37,916 nucleotides of DNA. It comes from Bacillota bacterium (GTDB lineage Bacteria > Bacillota > Limnochordia > Darwinibacteriales > Darwinibacteriaceae). Both the position numbers and the translations under genes were made by a program. Where the stretch lies: positions 1 through 37,916 of the forward strand of contig JAAYOM010000118.1 in the NCBI GenBank assembly GCA_012520315.1, written 5' to 3'. Under the pieces are notes generated by a model, which was not told the origin of the DNA, did not search any database, and saw nothing but the letters and a program-made list of their open reading frames with translations. Position 1 is the first letter of the stretch, and every line of letters begins with the position of its first letter. Shown here one piece after another: positions 3,261-23,100 of this stretch.

Positions 3261-4061
3261 ATGAGAAGCATGTGGAACGGTTCACTTTCTTTTGGCCTAG
3301 TGAACATTCCGGTCAAAATGTATACTGCAACCCAGGCAAAGGATCTGCGTTTTAACCAGTTGCACAGTCTGTGCCATACCCCCATTAAGTACGAAAAGGT
3401 GTGCCCTAACTGTCAGCAGGCGGTGCCAGGAGAGGAAATCGTCCGGGGTTATCAGTATGAACGGGGGCGTTATGTAATCATCGAGGACGAAGAATGGGAC
3501 AGCTTCACCGCAAAATCCAGCCGCACGGTGGATATCCTGCGTTTCGTGGAGCTTAGTGAAATCGATCCTATTTATTATAACAAAACGTATTACCTCGAGC
3601 CGGCAGAAACAGGGGGTAAGGCCTATGCACTTCTCAGTCAGGCCCTGTCCATTTCCGGCAAGATTGCGGTCGCTGAAATTACGGTTCGCTCTAAGCCTTC
3701 GTTAGCTGTAATCAGGGTATATCATGGGATCTTAGCCCTGGAAACGATCTATTACCCCGACGAAATCCGGGAATATGCCCTGCTTTCCCTGCCGCAAGTT
3801 CAAGTCCAAGACAGGGAGCTGGAAATGGCCATGTCTCTAATTAATAGTCTAACCGAGCCCTTTAAACCGGAAAACTACAGTGATGAACGGCGTTTACGGC
3901 TCCAAGATCTTATTCAGGCAAAAATCTACGGGCAAGAGACTGTTCAGGTGGAGAAAAAAGAAGATGAAGTTGCTCCAGTCGACCTCCTAGCCGCTCTGCA
4001 AGCATCCATCCAGGCTCAGCAAGAGAAAATGGGTGACAGCTCTGGAGAGTATAGGCATTGA
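3261..4061 (+). CDS. ku: Ku, DNA end-binding protein of bacterial NHEJ
   Basis: Ku forms a homodimeric ring on double-strand break ends and recruits the ligase. The 266-residue product has normal length for a short bacterial Ku. It opens with the family signature SMWNGSLSFGLVNIPVKMY, followed by the paired-cysteine segment HTPIKYEKVCPNC and GYQYERGRYVIIEDEEW. The conserved YYLEP comes next, and the LINSL...KPENYSDERRLRLQDLI region closes the core. The C-terminal tail is short and acidic/polar, without the long Lys-rich extension of some actinobacterial Ku proteins. The ATG follows AGAGGG. The stop overlaps the TTG start of the ligase gene by 3 bases, so the two are translationally coupled. 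The context of dedicated ligase and polymerase genes makes the assignment very secure. Confidence 0.97.
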   Translation: MRSMWNGSLSFGLVNIPVKMYTATQAKDLRFNQLHSLCHTPIKYEKVCPNCQQAVPGEEIVRGYQYERGRYVIIEDEEWDSFTAKSSRTVDILRFVELSEIDPIYYNKTYYLEPAETGGKAYALLSQALSISGKIAVAEITVRSKPSLAVIRVYHGILALETIYYPDEIREYALLSLPQVQVQDRELEMAMSLINSLTEPFKPENYSDERRLRLQDLIQAKIYGQETVQVEKKEDEVAPVDLLAALQASIQAQQEKMGDSSGEYRH

Positions 4062-4981
4062 GTTTGCACCGCTACCGGCCTATGCTGCCAGTGGATCAGC
4101 CTGCCCCACCTGATGATTTGGAGTTCATTCATGAAATTAAATGGGATGGATATCGGGTATTGGCTTACCTGGACGGAGATGTAAGACTGGAAAGCCGAAG
4201 GGGCCGAAATCTCAATCCTCTCTTTCCATCGGTGGCGGAAAGACTTAGTCAACTGGGTCTGCAAGCGGTCTTAGACGGTGAAGTTGTGGCACTAAACAAG
4301 GAAGGACAGGTTGATTTCTCGCTCCTTCAATCTCGCTGTCCTAAGAAACGCACGTGTTATATAGTTTTTGATGTACTCTTTCTTCAAGGTGAAGATTTTT
4401 GTGAAAGACCCTGGCTGGAGCGGCGGAAGTATCTCGAAAGCGTAATCACTAATCAGGGAACTGTCATGTTATCGCCTCTACTTCCTGGTTCTGCTGCAGA
4501 GAGCCTGTCATTTGCGGCTGAACATCACCTAGAGGGTATTGTCTCTAAAGATCGAAACTCACCCTATTTACCCGGAGTTCGCTCACCCGCATGGAGGAAA
4601 CAGAAGATTAGGCGGAGCCTGGATTGCATAGTGATAGGCGTCAAAATGGGAAAGGGGCGCATTCGTTCCCTGGCTGCTGCGGTGTATCGAAGCGACGGTT
4701 CATTGCTCTACCTAGGCAATGTGGGAAGCGGATTCAGCCTGCGGGAGCTGGACTTTATCCGCAAAGCCATAGACATTCTGCCCAGAACTCCTCGCTGCCT
4801 TTGCACCAATCCTCCAGGCGCGCCGGGTGATTGGCTTTGGTTTAAGCCCCTATTGGTGCTGGAGGTTGAATACACTGAACTGACGCCGGCAAAACGTTTG
4901 CGCCACCCAGTATTTAGACGTTTTCGCTTCGATAAAGAGGCCAAGGATTGCCTGTTGGAGGAAGGTCCAGATGACAACTAA
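4058..4981 (+). CDS. ligD: ATP-dependent DNA ligase (LigD ligase-domain type)
   Basis: This ligase seals nicks at Ku-bound breaks. The 307-residue protein corresponds only to the ligase domain of LigD. The adenylation motif KWDGYR gives catalytic Lys28, and LDGEVV is a second nucleotidyltransferase motif. EGIVSKDRNSPY and WRKQKI are the later motifs. An OB-fold from about residue 190 contains GVKMGKGRI, and VLEVEYTELTP lies near the end. The start is TTG at 4058, overlapping the Ku stop (TGA 4059-4061), with GGAGAG upstream; a second in-frame TTG lies at 4064. The 3' end overlaps the polymerase gene by 11 bases. The phosphoesterase domain of multidomain LigD is missing here and is not encoded nearby. 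Confidence 0.95.
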   Translation: MSLHRYRPMLPVDQPAPPDDLEFIHEIKWDGYRVLAYLDGDVRLESRRGRNLNPLFPSVAERLSQLGLQAVLDGEVVALNKEGQVDFSLLQSRCPKKRTCYIVFDVLFLQGEDFCERPWLERRKYLESVITNQGTVMLSPLLPGSAAESLSFAAEHHLEGIVSKDRNSPYLPGVRSPAWRKQKIRRSLDCIVIGVKMGKGRIRSLAAAVYRSDGSLLYLGNVGSGFSLRELDFIRKAIDILPRTPRCLCTNPPGAPGDWLWFKPLLVLEVEYTELTPAKRLRHPVFRRFRFDKEAKDCLLEEGPDDN

Positions 4982-5864
4982 AAAGATAGTACAGGTGGAG
5001 GGAAAAGAGCTGCAGCTGTCCAATCTAGATAAGGTACTCTGGCCGAAAGCTGGCGTTACCAAGGCCAATTTGCTGGAGTATCATGCACGCCTTTTTCCCC
5101 TCACAAAAAGGCATTGGCAAGGCCGAGCCCTCACTGTCACCCGCTATCCTCACGGCATAGAGGGGGAGTTTTTCTTTCAAAAAAATATCCCTGCCTCAGC
5201 ACCGCCTTGGGTCCAAACTGCTAAGATTGAAGACACGAACTACGTTGTAGCAAATGACCTTGCGACCGTGTCCTGGCTGGCCAATCTGGCAGCAATAGAG
5301 TTTCACCCTTCGACTTATCTGGCTGCTCGCGCCGGGGTACCAAGCTATGCTATAATTGACTTGGATCCAACTGAACCGCAAGGTTATGCTGAGACTGTTG
5401 ATGCAGCCAGGCACTGCCGGGATGTCCTCTGCGAGATTGGTCTGCAGGGCTATCCTAAGCTATCGGGTGCAACAGGTATTCACATCTACATTCCCCTGCA
5501 GGCTCGCTACAATTTTCAGATTACAGCTCAGCTCGTCAAGTTCATCGGGATGACACTGCAGCGCCGCTATCCAGAGAAGTTTACGCTGGAAAGGCTTGTC
5601 AAAAAGAGGCATGGGGTGTATGTTGATTATCTTCAGAACCATCCCAGCAGGACTATTGTTGGCGTTTACAGCCCCAGGCCTACTTTGGAGGCAACCGTCT
5701 CAACGCCGATTCGGTGGGAGGATCTGAGTTATTATGAACCTAGGGACTTTACGGTGCACACTGTGCCGGAGTGGATAAAGGGTAGGGGTGATCTCTTTGA
5801 ACAGGTGTTTAGTCAGCCCCAATCCCTGGAGCACCTGCAAAATCCGGAGATTTTTCAGAAATAA
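4971..5864 (+). CDS. LigD-type NHEJ primase-polymerase (PolDom)
   Basis: This archaeo-eukaryotic primase superfamily polymerase fills gaps, preferentially with ribonucleotides, during bacterial end joining. The 297-residue stand-alone protein begins with the usual VEGKELQLSNLDKVLWP. The metal-binding DLDP motif is at about residues 130-133, and SGATGIHIYIP is at about 165-175 with its conserved His. The segment VYVDYLQNHPSRTIVGVYS with PRPTLEATVSTP holds the third acidic motif and the nucleotide-binding region. The ATG at 4971 lies inside the ligase gene. It is the last gene of the operon and no clear terminator follows; the infC promoter begins 8 bases after its stop. Separate ligase and polymerase genes resemble the split NHEJ sets of some Clostridia and archaea. 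Confidence 0.95.
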   Translation: MTTKKIVQVEGKELQLSNLDKVLWPKAGVTKANLLEYHARLFPLTKRHWQGRALTVTRYPHGIEGEFFFQKNIPASAPPWVQTAKIEDTNYVVANDLATVSWLANLAAIEFHPSTYLAARAGVPSYAIIDLDPTEPQGYAETVDAARHCRDVLCEIGLQGYPKLSGATGIHIYIPLQARYNFQITAQLVKFIGMTLQRRYPEKFTLERLVKKRHGVYVDYLQNHPSRTIVGVYSPRPTLEATVSTPIRWEDLSYYEPRDFTVHTVPEWIKGRGDLFEQVFSQPQSLEHLQNPEIFQK

Positions 5865-8233: not shown

Positions 8234-8284
8234 GAAGAGCAGTTTCACAATAAATAGCTAAAGGCAATGAAGGAGAATAGTATA

Positions 8285-8521
8285 TCCGCAGCCTCCCCAG
8301 AGAGAGAAGATCACCGGCTGCAAGTCTTCTTGGATGAAAAGCGGATTGAATTCCCTCCTGAGCTGCAAACTGAAATAATAGTAGGTTTAGTCGGATTCCT
8401 CCGTTACAGGATTTGAGATGGGCTGGCTTAAGATGTCCTTAAGATCATGCCAAATAGGGTGGTACCGCGTACTTCTTGCGTCCCTTGCCAAATGTTGGGC
8501 TGGGATGCGAGGAGTTTTTTT
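8285..8521 (+). promoter_or_regulatory. T-box riboswitch for phenylalanine (pheST leader)
   Basis: T-box leaders sense uncharged tRNA and switch off a terminator. Stem I is bounded by GCAGC (about 8288) and GCTGC (about 8364), with the AGAGAG loop-E-like element on the 5' side. Opposite it the specifier candidate TTC (Phe) is at 8351-8353. The canonical T-box AGGGTGGTACCGCG is at 8456-8469; its TGGT bulge pairs with tRNA 3' ACCA, consistent with A73 of tRNA-Phe. The terminator is a 14-bp stem between ACTTCTTGCGTCCC (8471-8484) and GGGATGCGAGGAGT, followed by T7. The downstream genes pheST confirm the amino acid. Confidence 0.93.
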
Positions 8522-18810: not shown

Positions 18811-20832
18811 TTAGCGCTGCAAGAACGGTATGCTTTGCCACCAAGGCTGCGAGCAGCGGGGCGATACCTCGGTCGGTTCGGTACCTGCAATGAAGATCTC
18901 ACGCCGAACCTCGTCGGGAGGAAGGTTGCAGTCATCCGTCACCAGGAGTCCGGTTTTGGTATCGATCAACACACCTTCGACCAGACCGCTTGGTTTAGGG
19001 AAGTCCCTGATGGGAGTGTCTTTCAAAGCCTCGCGCATAAAGTTGCCCCAGATTGTGGCGGCATTCCAGGAACCATAGCGAACTCCTCCGTAAACCATGC
19101 GGCGGGGTGTGTCTTCGCCGAACCAGACTACACTGACTAAGTCAGGCGTATATCCCACAAACCATGCATCCTGGTAGTCGGAATGGGTTCCGGTTTTCCC
19201 GGCTGCCGGGCGTCCGATATTGGCGTTCTTGCCAGTACCTCTTTCTATTACGCCCCGCAGGAGATCAGTCATGATGTAGCTTGTTTGCTCACTGAGCACA
19301 ACCTCTAAACGGGGACTGTTTTGTTCCAAGACATTCCCATGGGCATCTGTGACTTTGAGGATAGAGAGGGGTTCGACCTTAATACCTTGGTTTGCCAGAA
19401 CTCCGTAGGCTGTTGCCAGTTCTAACAGGCTGACCCCCTTGGTCATGCCTCCCAGGGCTAGGGGAGCGAGGCCAACATCATTAACCCGGCCTTGTTCCAC
19501 AAAGGTAGTGATTCCCATCTTTTTCGCATAGTCAATGACCATTTGAGGACCGAGCTGATCCACAACTTGAGCGGCTATAACGTTCAAGGAATCCTCTAAT
19601 GCATCCCGAACAGTCACTTCGCCGGCGAATGTTTCATAGTAGTTGCGGGGCGACCACACTTCGCCTGTTATGGTCACAAAATCTGTCGGTTCATCCATGT
19701 ATACATCTGCCACAGTGATGCCATTGTCAATTGCCGCTGTGTACGGGAAGATTTTAATGGCAGATCCTGGAGAGCGCAGGGCTTGCACACAGCGGTTAAA
19801 GCTGTCCTCGCCGCGGCCTCCCACCATAACCCTAATTTCCCCTGTCTGAGGAACCAAAGCCAATGCTGCGCCCTGGGGCTGGGTGAGGGAACCTTCTGCG
19901 GCAGGATTGCGGGGCAAACCTTCAGCCAACGCCTTTTCGGCGGCCCTTTGCATATCAAGGTCGAGGGTGGTATAAACGCGCAGACCGCCGCTGAATACTT
20001 CAGCTTCGCCATACCTCTCAATTAGTTGACTAATTACATAGTCCACAAAATAGCTAGCTTCCACAACGCGCTGTCTGCGCTCAGCCAAGTTCAAAGGTTC
20101 CGCTTTGGCCGCAGCGGCTTCAGCAGATGTTATGAAGCCCACTTCTTCCATGCGGCTGAGGACAAAGTTTCGCCTGTCTATGGCAATGTCGGGATTTACA
20201 AAGGGAGAGTAACGGGTGGGCCAGCGAATCACTCCTGCGATCATGGCTGCTTCACTCAGTGTCAGATCCTTTGCTGATTTACCAAAAAAGGTGCGCGCGC
20301 CGGCCTCAATACCGTAGGCGCCATGGTTTAGGTAGAACTCGTTGAGATAAGCTTCTAGAATTTCATCCTTGGAATACTTCCGTTCAATTTGCACCGCCCA
20401 CAGGAATTCCTCTAGTTTGCGCATGATGGTCTTCTTCTGTGTTAAGAACACATTGCGGGCGAGCTGCATCGTGATTGTTCCTCCGCCCTGGCTGAAACTC
20501 CAGTCCCTGATGTTAACCAAAATGGCACGTCCGAATGCAATAAAGTTAATGCCATGATGATTGTAGAATTGGTCGTCTTCGATGGCCACAACCGCGTCCT
20601 TGACATGATCAGGAAGTTCATTAATATCCACGGGGATTCTGTTTTCTTTATACAAATCCGTGATTAAACGACCATTGGTATCATAGATGTAAGTAGTAAA
20701 GTTCTGATGAATATTTACCTGGTCGAGGCTGGGAGCGCTCTTCAGGTAGGCGGCAAGGACACCGACGCCTGCTCCTAGCAAAGTTGATCCTAGAATCACT
20801 AGTACATATATAAGAATGGTCTTTCTCTTCAC
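18811..20832 (-). CDS. Class A penicillin-binding protein (PBP1A family)
   Basis: This bifunctional peptidoglycan synthase polymerises glycan strands and cross-links peptides outside the membrane. The 673-residue protein has a membrane anchor at residues 5-30. The GT51 glycosyltransferase domain carries catalytic EDDQFYNHHG (E85) and GGGTITMQLARN. The transpeptidase domain has SxxK at S357-K360 (GSAIK), SLN at 415-417 and KTGT at 546-549, so both activities look intact. The tail after the transpeptidase contains a cysteine pair and ends WWQSIPFLQR, without PASTA or fibronectin modules. The start is GTG, with GGGGGTG 6 bases upstream on the minus strand. It stands alone. Confidence 0.94.
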   Translation of the reverse strand: MKRKTILIYVLVILGSTLLGAGVGVLAAYLKSAPSLDQVNIHQNFTTYIYDTNGRLITDLYKENRIPVDINELPDHVKDAVVAIEDDQFYNHHGINFIAFGRAILVNIRDWSFSQGGGTITMQLARNVFLTQKKTIMRKLEEFLWAVQIERKYSKDEILEAYLNEFYLNHGAYGIEAGARTFFGKSAKDLTLSEAAMIAGVIRWPTRYSPFVNPDIAIDRRNFVLSRMEEVGFITSAEAAAAKAEPLNLAERRQRVVEASYFVDYVISQLIERYGEAEVFSGGLRVYTTLDLDMQRAAEKALAEGLPRNPAAEGSLTQPQGAALALVPQTGEIRVMVGGRGEDSFNRCVQALRSPGSAIKIFPYTAAIDNGITVADVYMDEPTDFVTITGEVWSPRNYYETFAGEVTVRDALEDSLNVIAAQVVDQLGPQMVIDYAKKMGITTFVEQGRVNDVGLAPLALGGMTKGVSLLELATAYGVLANQGIKVEPLSILKVTDAHGNVLEQNSPRLEVVLSEQTSYIMTDLLRGVIERGTGKNANIGRPAAGKTGTHSDYQDAWFVGYTPDLVSVVWFGEDTPRRMVYGGVRYGSWNAATIWGNFMREALKDTPIRDFPKPSGLVEGVLIDTKTGLLVTDDCNLPPDEVRREIFIAGTEPTEVSPRCSQPWWQSIPFLQR

Positions 20833-20943: not shown

Positions 20944-21618
20944 ATGTCCGTGATAAAATTTACTTGGCGCACCTACGCAGGCCTGGTGCTATTTATTTTT
21001 GTCCTGTTTTCGGTCTTAGCATTAATGATTGCAGAGGGACGCCTAGCACCTGTTTTGCGTACCTGGGCCCAAACCAGGGCTGTCAATCTGGCAACACGGG
21101 CCATTAATGTGGCGGTGGAGGAAATGATGGCTGCAAGTCTAAGTAGTACAACTATGGCACATCTGATTCGGGACGGCGAAGGCAATTTGCAGGCAATCCA
21201 GTATGACATGGGGGAAGTAAACCGGGTGAGCAGTCAGGCTACCCACAAAATATTGCAGACACTCAATAACATGGGCGAAGAAGTTTTCCCCATCCCCCTC
21301 GGTCAACTCACAGGCCTTGATTTCTTGGCTTCCTGGGGACCTGGCATTCCGGTGCGCATGATTCCTGTCGGCGGATTGACCACCACGCCGGTGGCCAGTT
21401 TCGAAAGCGCCGGAATCAACCAAACCTGGCATCGCGTTCTTTTGGATATACAAGTTATTATGCGGGTTGCAGTACCTTTAGTGTCAGAAGAAATCCTGGT
21501 TTCCACGCAAGTTCCCATCTTGGAAGAAGTTTTCATCGGGTCTGTGCCCACTTGGTATTTCACTGGCCAGGAGAACCTTTTAGGTTCGGATGGTCGCTTA
21601 GAATTCCCCCTAAAGTGA
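20944..21618 (+). CDS. yunB: Sporulation protein YunB
   Basis: YunB is a membrane-anchored protein of spore formers, made in the mother cell in Bacillus and needed for full sporulation; its biochemistry is unknown. The 224-residue product has one N-terminal membrane segment (about 12-30). The body is typical of the family, with RAINVAVEEMM and a conserved segment around LTGLDFLASWGPGIPVRMIPVG. It ends near EEVFIGSVPTWYF. GAGAGGTG lies only 3-4 bases before the ATG at 20944. A GTG at 20950 has better spacing (9 bases) and may be the real start. The LeuRS-like gene begins immediately after its stop, suggesting translational coupling. Confidence 0.88.
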   Translation: MSVIKFTWRTYAGLVLFIFVLFSVLALMIAEGRLAPVLRTWAQTRAVNLATRAINVAVEEMMAASLSSTTMAHLIRDGEGNLQAIQYDMGEVNRVSSQATHKILQTLNNMGEEVFPIPLGQLTGLDFLASWGPGIPVRMIPVGGLTTTPVASFESAGINQTWHRVLLDIQVIMRVAVPLVSEEILVSTQVPILEEVFIGSVPTWYFTGQENLLGSDGRLEFPLK

Positions 21619-22410
21619 GTGAACAGCATGTTGCGCTACAATCATGGCATGATCGAAAAGAAGTGGCAGCAAAATTGGAAGAAGGGTTCCAGATTGACGG
21701 GCGAGCCTCTGCGGGCTTGCACGCTGCTCATTCCCCATGCAGGCGGGGATCTGGGTTTAGAAAATGCCCGACTATTGCTCCTCACTGATTTTCTCTGCCG
21801 AAAAGGGCGGGGAAGGGAGTCAGTGATCGCCCTGCTAAGTCAGGCAGAAAGTTGGCTGGAAGGAGCACGCTCCCTTGGTCTTAGCGTGCAGGCCGCCTCG
21901 GATACCCAGGTCTATGATGTGGCTGTAGTGCCCCGGGACTATGGGCAGACCTTCGGAATGACCTTTAAGGCCAGGGAGTCTTTCTCCTGTGGACGTCTGT
22001 TAGAAACCGAGGACTATACTTTGTCTGAGCTCATAGACGATTTCGGAATAGATGCTTTGCGCATGTATTTTTTATATATGGGGCCTCCAGCGAGGGACTA
22101 TCGATTCCGCTGGCAGGGGCTGGTCAGCTCCTATCGTTTCGTAGAAAGGCTTTGGCGGCTGGCGCAGCACCCAGCTGGCGATCTGGAGCGATCGGGCCTA
22201 TTAGATCTGCACGCCCAGGTGCAGGCTCGCTTAGCGCAAGGAAAACCCCATACAGCTTTGGCAGCTGTTATGGGGTATGTTAAGCTGAAGGAAATGCTTG
22301 CAGTCAGGGAGATTGAGGCAATTGCTATATTACTTCAACCCTACGCCCCGCATCTCAGTGCCGAGTTACTTGAGCTTATGGCGGCGATCCAGAATGATGA
22401 TGGCAGGTAG
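21619..22410 (+). CDS. Reduced leucyl-tRNA-synthetase-like protein with degenerate motifs
   Basis: This 263-residue protein looks like a leucyl-tRNA synthetase shrunk to about a third. Residues 4-18 (LRYNHGMIEKKWQQNW) match the LeuRS N-terminus. PHAGGDLGLENA stands where PYPSG and HIGH should be, and LLTDFLCRKGRG stands for the following helix. From about residue 130, DDFGIDALRMYFLYMGPP, then SYRFVERLWRL and LLQPYAPHLSAELLEL, match the LeuRS region after KMSKS and the anticodon-binding helices. The editing domain, most of the catalytic core and the C-terminal domain are absent. HIGH and KMSKS (MTFKARES at the expected site) are both lost, so aminoacylation is very unlikely. The GTG at 21619 directly follows the yunB stop; ATG at 21628 is an alternative. 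The last 45 bases overlap lgt on the other strand. The function is unknown. Confidence 0.8.
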   Translation: MNSMLRYNHGMIEKKWQQNWKKGSRLTGEPLRACTLLIPHAGGDLGLENARLLLLTDFLCRKGRGRESVIALLSQAESWLEGARSLGLSVQAASDTQVYDVAVVPRDYGQTFGMTFKARESFSCGRLLETEDYTLSELIDDFGIDALRMYFLYMGPPARDYRFRWQGLVSSYRFVERLWRLAQHPAGDLERSGLLDLHAQVQARLAQGKPHTALAAVMGYVKLKEMLAVREIEAIAILLQPYAPHLSAELLELMAAIQNDDGR

Positions 22411-23100
22411 GGTAATTAGGCAAATCAAAAGGGCAATGATTTGGCTAAGCACAAAGGGGCCATAAAGTGTACTGTGTTGGCGGATGAAGTCCAGAAAAAA
22501 CCTGACCGCTGAATGCACAAAGAACGTGCGTAAAAAGGCATAGCCGTGGTATTTTGGATTTTTTGCCCACTTCCAGGCAAAGGGCAGAATGATGATCGAT
22601 GCCAAGACTTCGTAGAGCTGCGTTGGATGAACTGGCACCAAGCTGCTGGGAAACTCCACAGCCCATGGAAGATCGGTGGGCGGTCCATATAACTCACCGC
22701 TGAGAAAGTTCCCTGTGCGTACGAAGATGTGGCCCACAGACAAAATTGGGCCTGCAAAGTCAGCTATTTGCCAGTAGTTCAACTTGTGTTTGCGGACGTA
22801 GAAATAGCCGACGATCATGATGGCGATAATGGCTCCGTGGGAGGCCATGCCGGCCCGCGAAAAGATTTCTAGAGGATGCGCGACAAAATAGCGCCAATTG
22901 GGCAGTACCGCCCCGAGTCGGCTGCCGATCACGCCAACCACACCGGAGATAAAAAAGAGGTTCTCGATCTTCTGTTCGTCTACACCATGGAGACGGGCAA
23001 AGTAGCGGGCGATCAGGTATGCAGAGCCAAGGGTGCAGGCCATCAGGATCCCATACCAGTAGATGTCGATAGAACCAATACTAAATGCAATAGGATACAT
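22366..23100 (-). CDS. lgt: Prolipoprotein diacylglyceryl transferase
   Basis: Lgt transfers diacylglycerol from phosphatidylglycerol to the lipobox cysteine of lipoproteins. The 244-residue integral membrane protein has about seven hydrophobic segments. MASHGA carries the essential His, and the signature VRTGNFLSGELYG keeps the essential Arg, Asn, Glu and Gly. HPTQLYE and RFFLDFIRQ follow. In the last segment the usual Glu is Asp. GQ-x-x-GR is replaced by GHIFVR and HGG by HGA, so the protein is somewhat divergent. The ATG is preceded by GAGGTG. Its 3' end overlaps the LeuRS-like gene on the other strand by 45 bases. It is divergent from murG. Confidence 0.93.
   Translation of the reverse strand: MYPIAFSIGSIDIYWYGILMACTLGSAYLIARYFARLHGVDEQKIENLFFISGVVGVIGSRLGAVLPNWRYFVAHPLEIFSRAGMASHGAIIAIMIVGYFYVRKHKLNYWQIADFAGPILSVGHIFVRTGNFLSGELYGPPTDLPWAVEFPSSLVPVHPTQLYEVLASIIILPFAWKWAKNPKYHGYAFLRTFFVHSAVRFFLDFIRQHSTLYGPFVLSQIIALLICLITLPAIIILDRRHKLK

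Follow-up and report, generated by a model that had tools for sequence, protein, structure and literature searches.

A short open reading frame lies between the sporulation gene yunB and lgt in a genome of the Bacillota, and both of its ends resemble leucyl-tRNA synthetase (LeuRS). Where did such a gene come from, and is it still kept for something? The frame, called X here, was studied in the window, the whole stretch of 37,916 nucleotides that was analysed, and in related genomes. The answer put forward is that X is the in-place remnant of the native leuS, left after a foreign leuS had replaced it and kept by purifying selection. The probability of this reading is put at about 0.9, a figure that covers origin and selection, not function.

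The features of the locus are the following.

18811 to 20832, minus strand: penicillin-binding protein gene, divergent from yunB, a marker of the locus in sister families too
20944 to 21618, plus strand: yunB, a sporulation gene whose stop abuts or overlaps the start region of X
21619 to 22410, plus strand: X, a LeuRS-derived protein of 263 residues, probably non-catalytic (motifs, profile and family matches)
21625 to 21810, plus strand: X residues 3-64, with the N-terminal RYNHxxxEKKW helix, the first strand and the former HIGH helix
21811 to 22017, plus strand: X residues 65-133, a divergent middle with predicted strands and helices that complete a small domain of alternating strands
22018 to 22383, plus strand: X residues 134-255, the DALR/GPP segment of LeuRS and a helical bundle of the anticodon-binding type
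22366 to 23100, minus strand: lgt, convergent to X; the 3' ends of the two genes overlap by 45 nt

The frame of X is intact and follows yunB without a gap, as the preliminary description had stated: the yunB stop (TGA, 21616-21618) directly abuts the annotated start, GTG at 21619. The true start may be ATG at 21628, giving 260 residues, to judge from the position of the Shine-Dalgarno motif and from the orthologues, most of which begin at the equivalent position (M-x-RYNH) and not at the GTG.

Homology to leucyl-tRNA synthetase

The preliminary description took X for a LeuRS-derived gene and proposed a profile-profile search and a structure prediction. Both found LeuRS similarity, and profile, family and fold searches all point the same way. 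X matches the NCBIfam model leuS_bact (TIGR00396) with E 5e-12 and 44.7 bits, which is below the curated cut-off of 548.4 bits, and the model is matched by 20 of the 20 complete copies in the window's family. A PDB sequence search matches LeuRS 3ziu (E 3.5e-8); a search of Pfam alone gave nothing significant (E 0.08). Profile-profile comparison with LeuRS of the same order finds significant homology over two segments, residues 134-255 (E 2.3e-20) and residues 3-64 (E 1.9e-6). They cover only stretches 5-72 and 592-720 of the 803 positions of LeuRS. Within the second segment of X, KPHTALAA corresponds to KLNTAVSA of the order's LeuRS.

AlphaFold2 models of two orthologues (pLDDT 90, pTM 0.88) predict two parts, a compact domain in which strands and helices alternate and, after it, the helical bundle of LeuRS. 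LeuRS entries head the Foldseek lists for both models (E 2e-7). Because the query-normalised TM-scores to LeuRS are only 0.38-0.52, the models match core parts of the enzyme rather than all of it. The similarity is far beyond chance, and the derivation of X from LeuRS is confirmed.

Lost catalytic and editing features

The HIGH signature reads HVGH in all ten LeuRSs of the order that were compared. In X it is xLEN (GLEN in the window copy), as had been noticed; E48 and N49 are invariant, as are R51 and L52 of the same segment. The KMSKS motif, kept in the same ten enzymes, is deleted: in the joint alignment the KMSKSKGN loop is missing between CGRLLET and the DFGxDALR helix. The loss of KMSKS in the preliminary description therefore stands, while the joint alignment speaks against MTFKARES as its equivalent. 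No residues of X correspond to the CP1 editing domain, also reported as gone, or to the C-terminal domain.

In class I synthetases the glycine and the second histidine of HIGH take part in ATP binding. Since both are replaced in X, adenylation by this protein is very unlikely, and its motifs support a non-catalytic role. The earlier statement that most of the catalytic fold is gone was too strong, as a confident strand-helix domain is predicted before the bundle. The middle of X has an invariant G87, R106-D107 (PRD) and G125-R126 (CGR). Its sequence alignment to the LeuRS core is unreliable, so its homology is putative and the continuity of a full Rossmann core is taken from the predicted fold only.

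Distribution

The window's family is represented by 23 genomes in nine genera, and X is present in 22 of them, from eight genera. Twenty copies are complete, with 247-284 residues; the other two are split over two contig ends (G004) or cut by one (G007). Named records include the metagenome-assembled genomes Peptococcaceae bacterium 1109 and Firmicutes bacterium UBA5493, and the lineage otherwise consists of uncultured Bacillota. No X-like short gene was found among the relatives searched outside the family. A survey of homologues for linkage to yunB had been suggested, and it places X between yunB and a convergent lgt across these eight genera. X lies downstream of yunB in 21 of 22 genomes, the exception being G021, where yunB was not reported by a simple open reading frame caller.

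One genome (G013, assembly about 75% complete) has lost X cleanly: yunB and lgt are direct neighbours there, with overlapping 3' ends (L219, 3031-4565). It keeps yunB and sigma-E. X is therefore not generally required and is dispensable in this genus, which disfavours an essential role.

Selection and new constraint

The dN/dS of X is about 0.26 (CI 0.17-0.37). The eight least saturated pairs give 0.20-0.27, no bootstrap reaches 1, and the value is unchanged when the end that overlaps lgt is omitted. In comparable pairs, the neighbouring genes have 0.03-0.21 and leuS has 0.03-0.06. Nonsynonymous sites change about 2-10 times faster in X than in its neighbours, so the constraint on X is relaxed. 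The copies share 29 invariant residues, among them several that LeuRS does not have. Of the sites that are fixed in LeuRS of the order and aligned to X, 33 persist in X, 73 are gone and 14 have been swapped to another near-fixed residue. Four of the swaps (G48>E and H49>N in HIGH, N211>H and H245>F) affect positions at which every LeuRS compared has the same residue. Near-fixed swaps at such universal sites indicate a new constrained role and not a vestigial LeuRS activity.

Could X instead be a dying pseudogene of the displaced leuS, still open through its overlap with lgt and its coupling to yunB? Fast evolution, large deletions, the clean loss in G013 and the 3' overlap with lgt would fit. 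This is very improbable in view of the 20 complete copies, which persist despite synonymous sites that are largely saturated across the family, the low dN/dS with or without the overlapping end, and the invariant residues that LeuRS does not share. A neutral simulation over the distance of the closest pair leads to about 8-10 expected stop codons, and together with dN/dS it rejects the pseudogene. The judgement that X is selected rather than decaying is thus upheld.

Probable origin from the native leuS

In four sister families (f2 to f5) a full-length leuS lies between the penicillin-binding protein gene and lgt, the place that X occupies in the window's family (f1). The order yunB-leuS is seen in seven genomes of f3, one of them cut by a contig end, and yunB-leuS-lgt in f4 (G025). 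In f2 (G023) leuS adjoins the penicillin-binding protein gene, and no yunB was seen at that locus. In f5 (G026, G028) leuS lies between lgt and a gene for tyrosyl-tRNA synthetase (TyrRS). This TyrRS gene has its own T-box and occupies, next to the native leuS, the place that yunB has in other families (L066, 9308-10645); a second f5 locus has an open frame of TyrRS size with a T-box at the same place (L068, 8244-9566).

The family has another leuS as its housekeeping gene. That a full-length copy should exist elsewhere in the window's genome was a check put forward earlier, and it is there (G000:C55). Every family genome but G020, a draft about 91% complete, has a separate leuS, which makes 22 of 23; one of these is a fragment. 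These copies share 76-93% identity with that of the window's genome. The family's leuS is 71% identical to LeuRS of a distant family (G263) and only 51-55% to the order-native LeuRS. In a tree of full-length LeuRSs it nests, with starred support, inside the foreign clade of that distant LeuRS; the clade of the order-native LeuRSs stands apart and has starred support too. One genome (G314) has a 510-residue LeuRS fragment with 73% identity to the f1 leuS (C4:115354-116883) and a full-length LeuRS of another type (C5:23679-26123), a pair that is possibly a displacement in progress.

X itself resembles the native enzyme. An X profile scores all ten order-native LeuRSs at 93-109 bits, no other LeuRS above 88 and the f1 leuS at no more than 75; mean identity, too, places X nearer to the order-native LeuRS than to the f1 leuS. 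A joint tree constrained to keep X beside the order-native LeuRS fits slightly better than an unconstrained one; constraining X to the f1 leuS costs 20 lnL, which is no formal rejection (p 0.14). The AU p values are 0.56 and 0.14, and the branch of X is long. As the tree does not place X firmly, synteny and profile scores are also needed to support its origin. The native leuS at the X locus in sister families, the likeness of X to native LeuRS and the presence elsewhere of an f1 leuS from a different clade together show that a foreign LeuRS displaced the native one. The foreign gene would have been gained once on the stem of the family, the native leuS shrinking in place.

That X is a duplicated and diverged paralogue of the present f1 leuS, inserted beside yunB, is hardly credible even though both are LeuRS-derived and the joint tree tolerates their pairing, since mean identity and every profile score bring X nearer to the native enzyme and synteny puts it exactly at the native place. 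The preliminary description, which had compared X with known synthetase paralogues, is corrected on this point by the synteny and profile scores.

Regulation

T-box leaders were called with Rfam. They precede leuS at 6 of 11 order-native loci and at all 17 loci of the replacement leuS in the window's family; at X none was found in the 14 loci tested. Elsewhere in the window, a T-box leader lies upstream of pheS (8258-8488), and genes for Ku, an ATP-dependent DNA ligase and a LigD primase-polymerase stand side by side at 3261-5864, a split LigD set for non-homologous end-joining.

In nearly all copies measured, the start of X falls within a stretch from 4 nt upstream to 28 nt downstream of the yunB stop. 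In G009 the longest frame begins further inside yunB, probably through a miscalled start. Motifs like GAGG or GGAGG, of Shine-Dalgarno type, overlap the yunB stop at X loci. X is probably translationally coupled to yunB. An AT-rich block is conserved in the alignment upstream of yunB, for which no sigma-E assignment is claimed; sigma-E is present in the five family genomes tested. In C. difficile, yunB is tabulated among the compartment-specific sporulation genes (PMC3789822). X would be expressed alongside yunB, in the mother cell of the sporulating bacterium. The proposed link to sporulation draws its support from gene order and coupling geometry only, and a general need for X is contradicted by G013.

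Proposed history and function

The family's ancestor would have acquired, at a separate place in its genome, a LeuRS from a different lineage, which took over leucyl-tRNA synthesis and today has a T-box leader of its own. The native leuS between yunB and lgt would then have shed the editing and C-terminal domains, the ATP-binding motifs, the KMSKS loop and also its T-box, and the shrunken gene would have become translationally coupled to yunB. X may later have gained conserved residues of its own, both in the helical bundle and where the active site had been, to be retained by purifying selection. Its product would act through the retained bundle as a non-enzymatic binding factor; tRNA(Leu) or a different RNA is the most plausible partner, followed by a protein or a small molecule, and this proposal is tentative and weakly held. 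As a best guess, X binds tRNA or protein as a non-catalytic factor made during sporulation. The broader idea, that a displaced essential synthetase was turned in place into a non-catalytic, sporulation-linked regulator or adaptor, with yunB coupling in place of a tRNA-sensing T-box as its control, falls a little short of even odds.

One possible, if somewhat doubtful, role is a translation-related one. With tRNA(Leu) or the new LeuRS as its binding partner, X might serve as chaperone or competitor or, like DALRD3, as an adaptor for a modifying enzyme. The DALR segment and the helical bundle are its best-kept part, with 53-57% mean identity compared with 20% in the linkers. The homologous segments carry a net charge of about +1 in X and about -5 in native LeuRS, a positive shift that mildly favours nucleic acid binding. 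The C-terminal domain of LeuRS contacts tRNA(Leu), and its absence from X, along with that of the editing domain, weighs against this role, as do the lack of a linked gene for a tRNA-modifying enzyme and the loss in G013. There are precedents in degenerate LeuRSs that still bind tRNA(Leu), according to the review PMC9437257, and in DALRD3 with tRNA(Arg) (PMC7237682).

It is unlikely, though worth weighing, that X is instead a sporulation factor that binds a small molecule or protein in the former active-site cleft, by means of E48-N49, R106-D107 and G125-R126. Coupling to yunB would suit such a factor, and these invariant residues fall at the former HIGH segment, by alignment, and at the GGxEH and QGM(I/V) segments by predicted topology, the middle being inferred. 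The new residues may, however, merely make salt bridges that close the emptied cleft.

Comparison with known systems

Horizontal replacement of synthetases is well known and, to our knowledge, a replaced gene normally leaves no trace. Here about 20 descendants of the leftover gene can be read together with the replaced gene, the gene that took its place and the ancestral locus as kept in sister families. What becomes of a discarded essential enzyme can thus be traced residue by residue. The findings suggest that it was given a new job in a family of uncultured spore-formers. A search of mostly open-access literature found no description of an X-like protein.

Bacterial LeuRS (TIGR00396) shares with X its sequence, its fold core and, in sister families, its genomic locus. 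It has about 800 residues compared with 263, and X is without its HIGH and KMSKS motifs and its editing and C-terminal domains. HisZ, PoxA and others resemble X as truncated or altered synthetase folds recruited outside charging, as covered in the review PMC9437257; in its consulted passages no non-charging LeuRS paralogue is given among such proteins. No partner or pathway genes of the kinds known for them are linked to X. DALRD3 also has a synthetase anticodon-binding domain and no charging role, and X is likened to it by description only; it differs in being mammalian, in its ArgRS-type domain and in its partner METTL2 (PMC7237682).

Further parallels in the same review (PMC9437257) are LeuRS-I of Sulfolobaceae, which still makes leucyl-adenylate and binds tRNA(Leu), and halobacterial LeuRS2, which retains low aminoacylation. 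Like X, each is a second LeuRS-derived protein with lost or poor aminoacylation. Unlike them, as they are presented there, X has no adenylation motifs and descends from the displaced native gene rather than from an added duplicate. X thus adds to the synthetase-like proteins a LeuRS-derived, apparently adenylation-dead member that offers a clear target for experiment.
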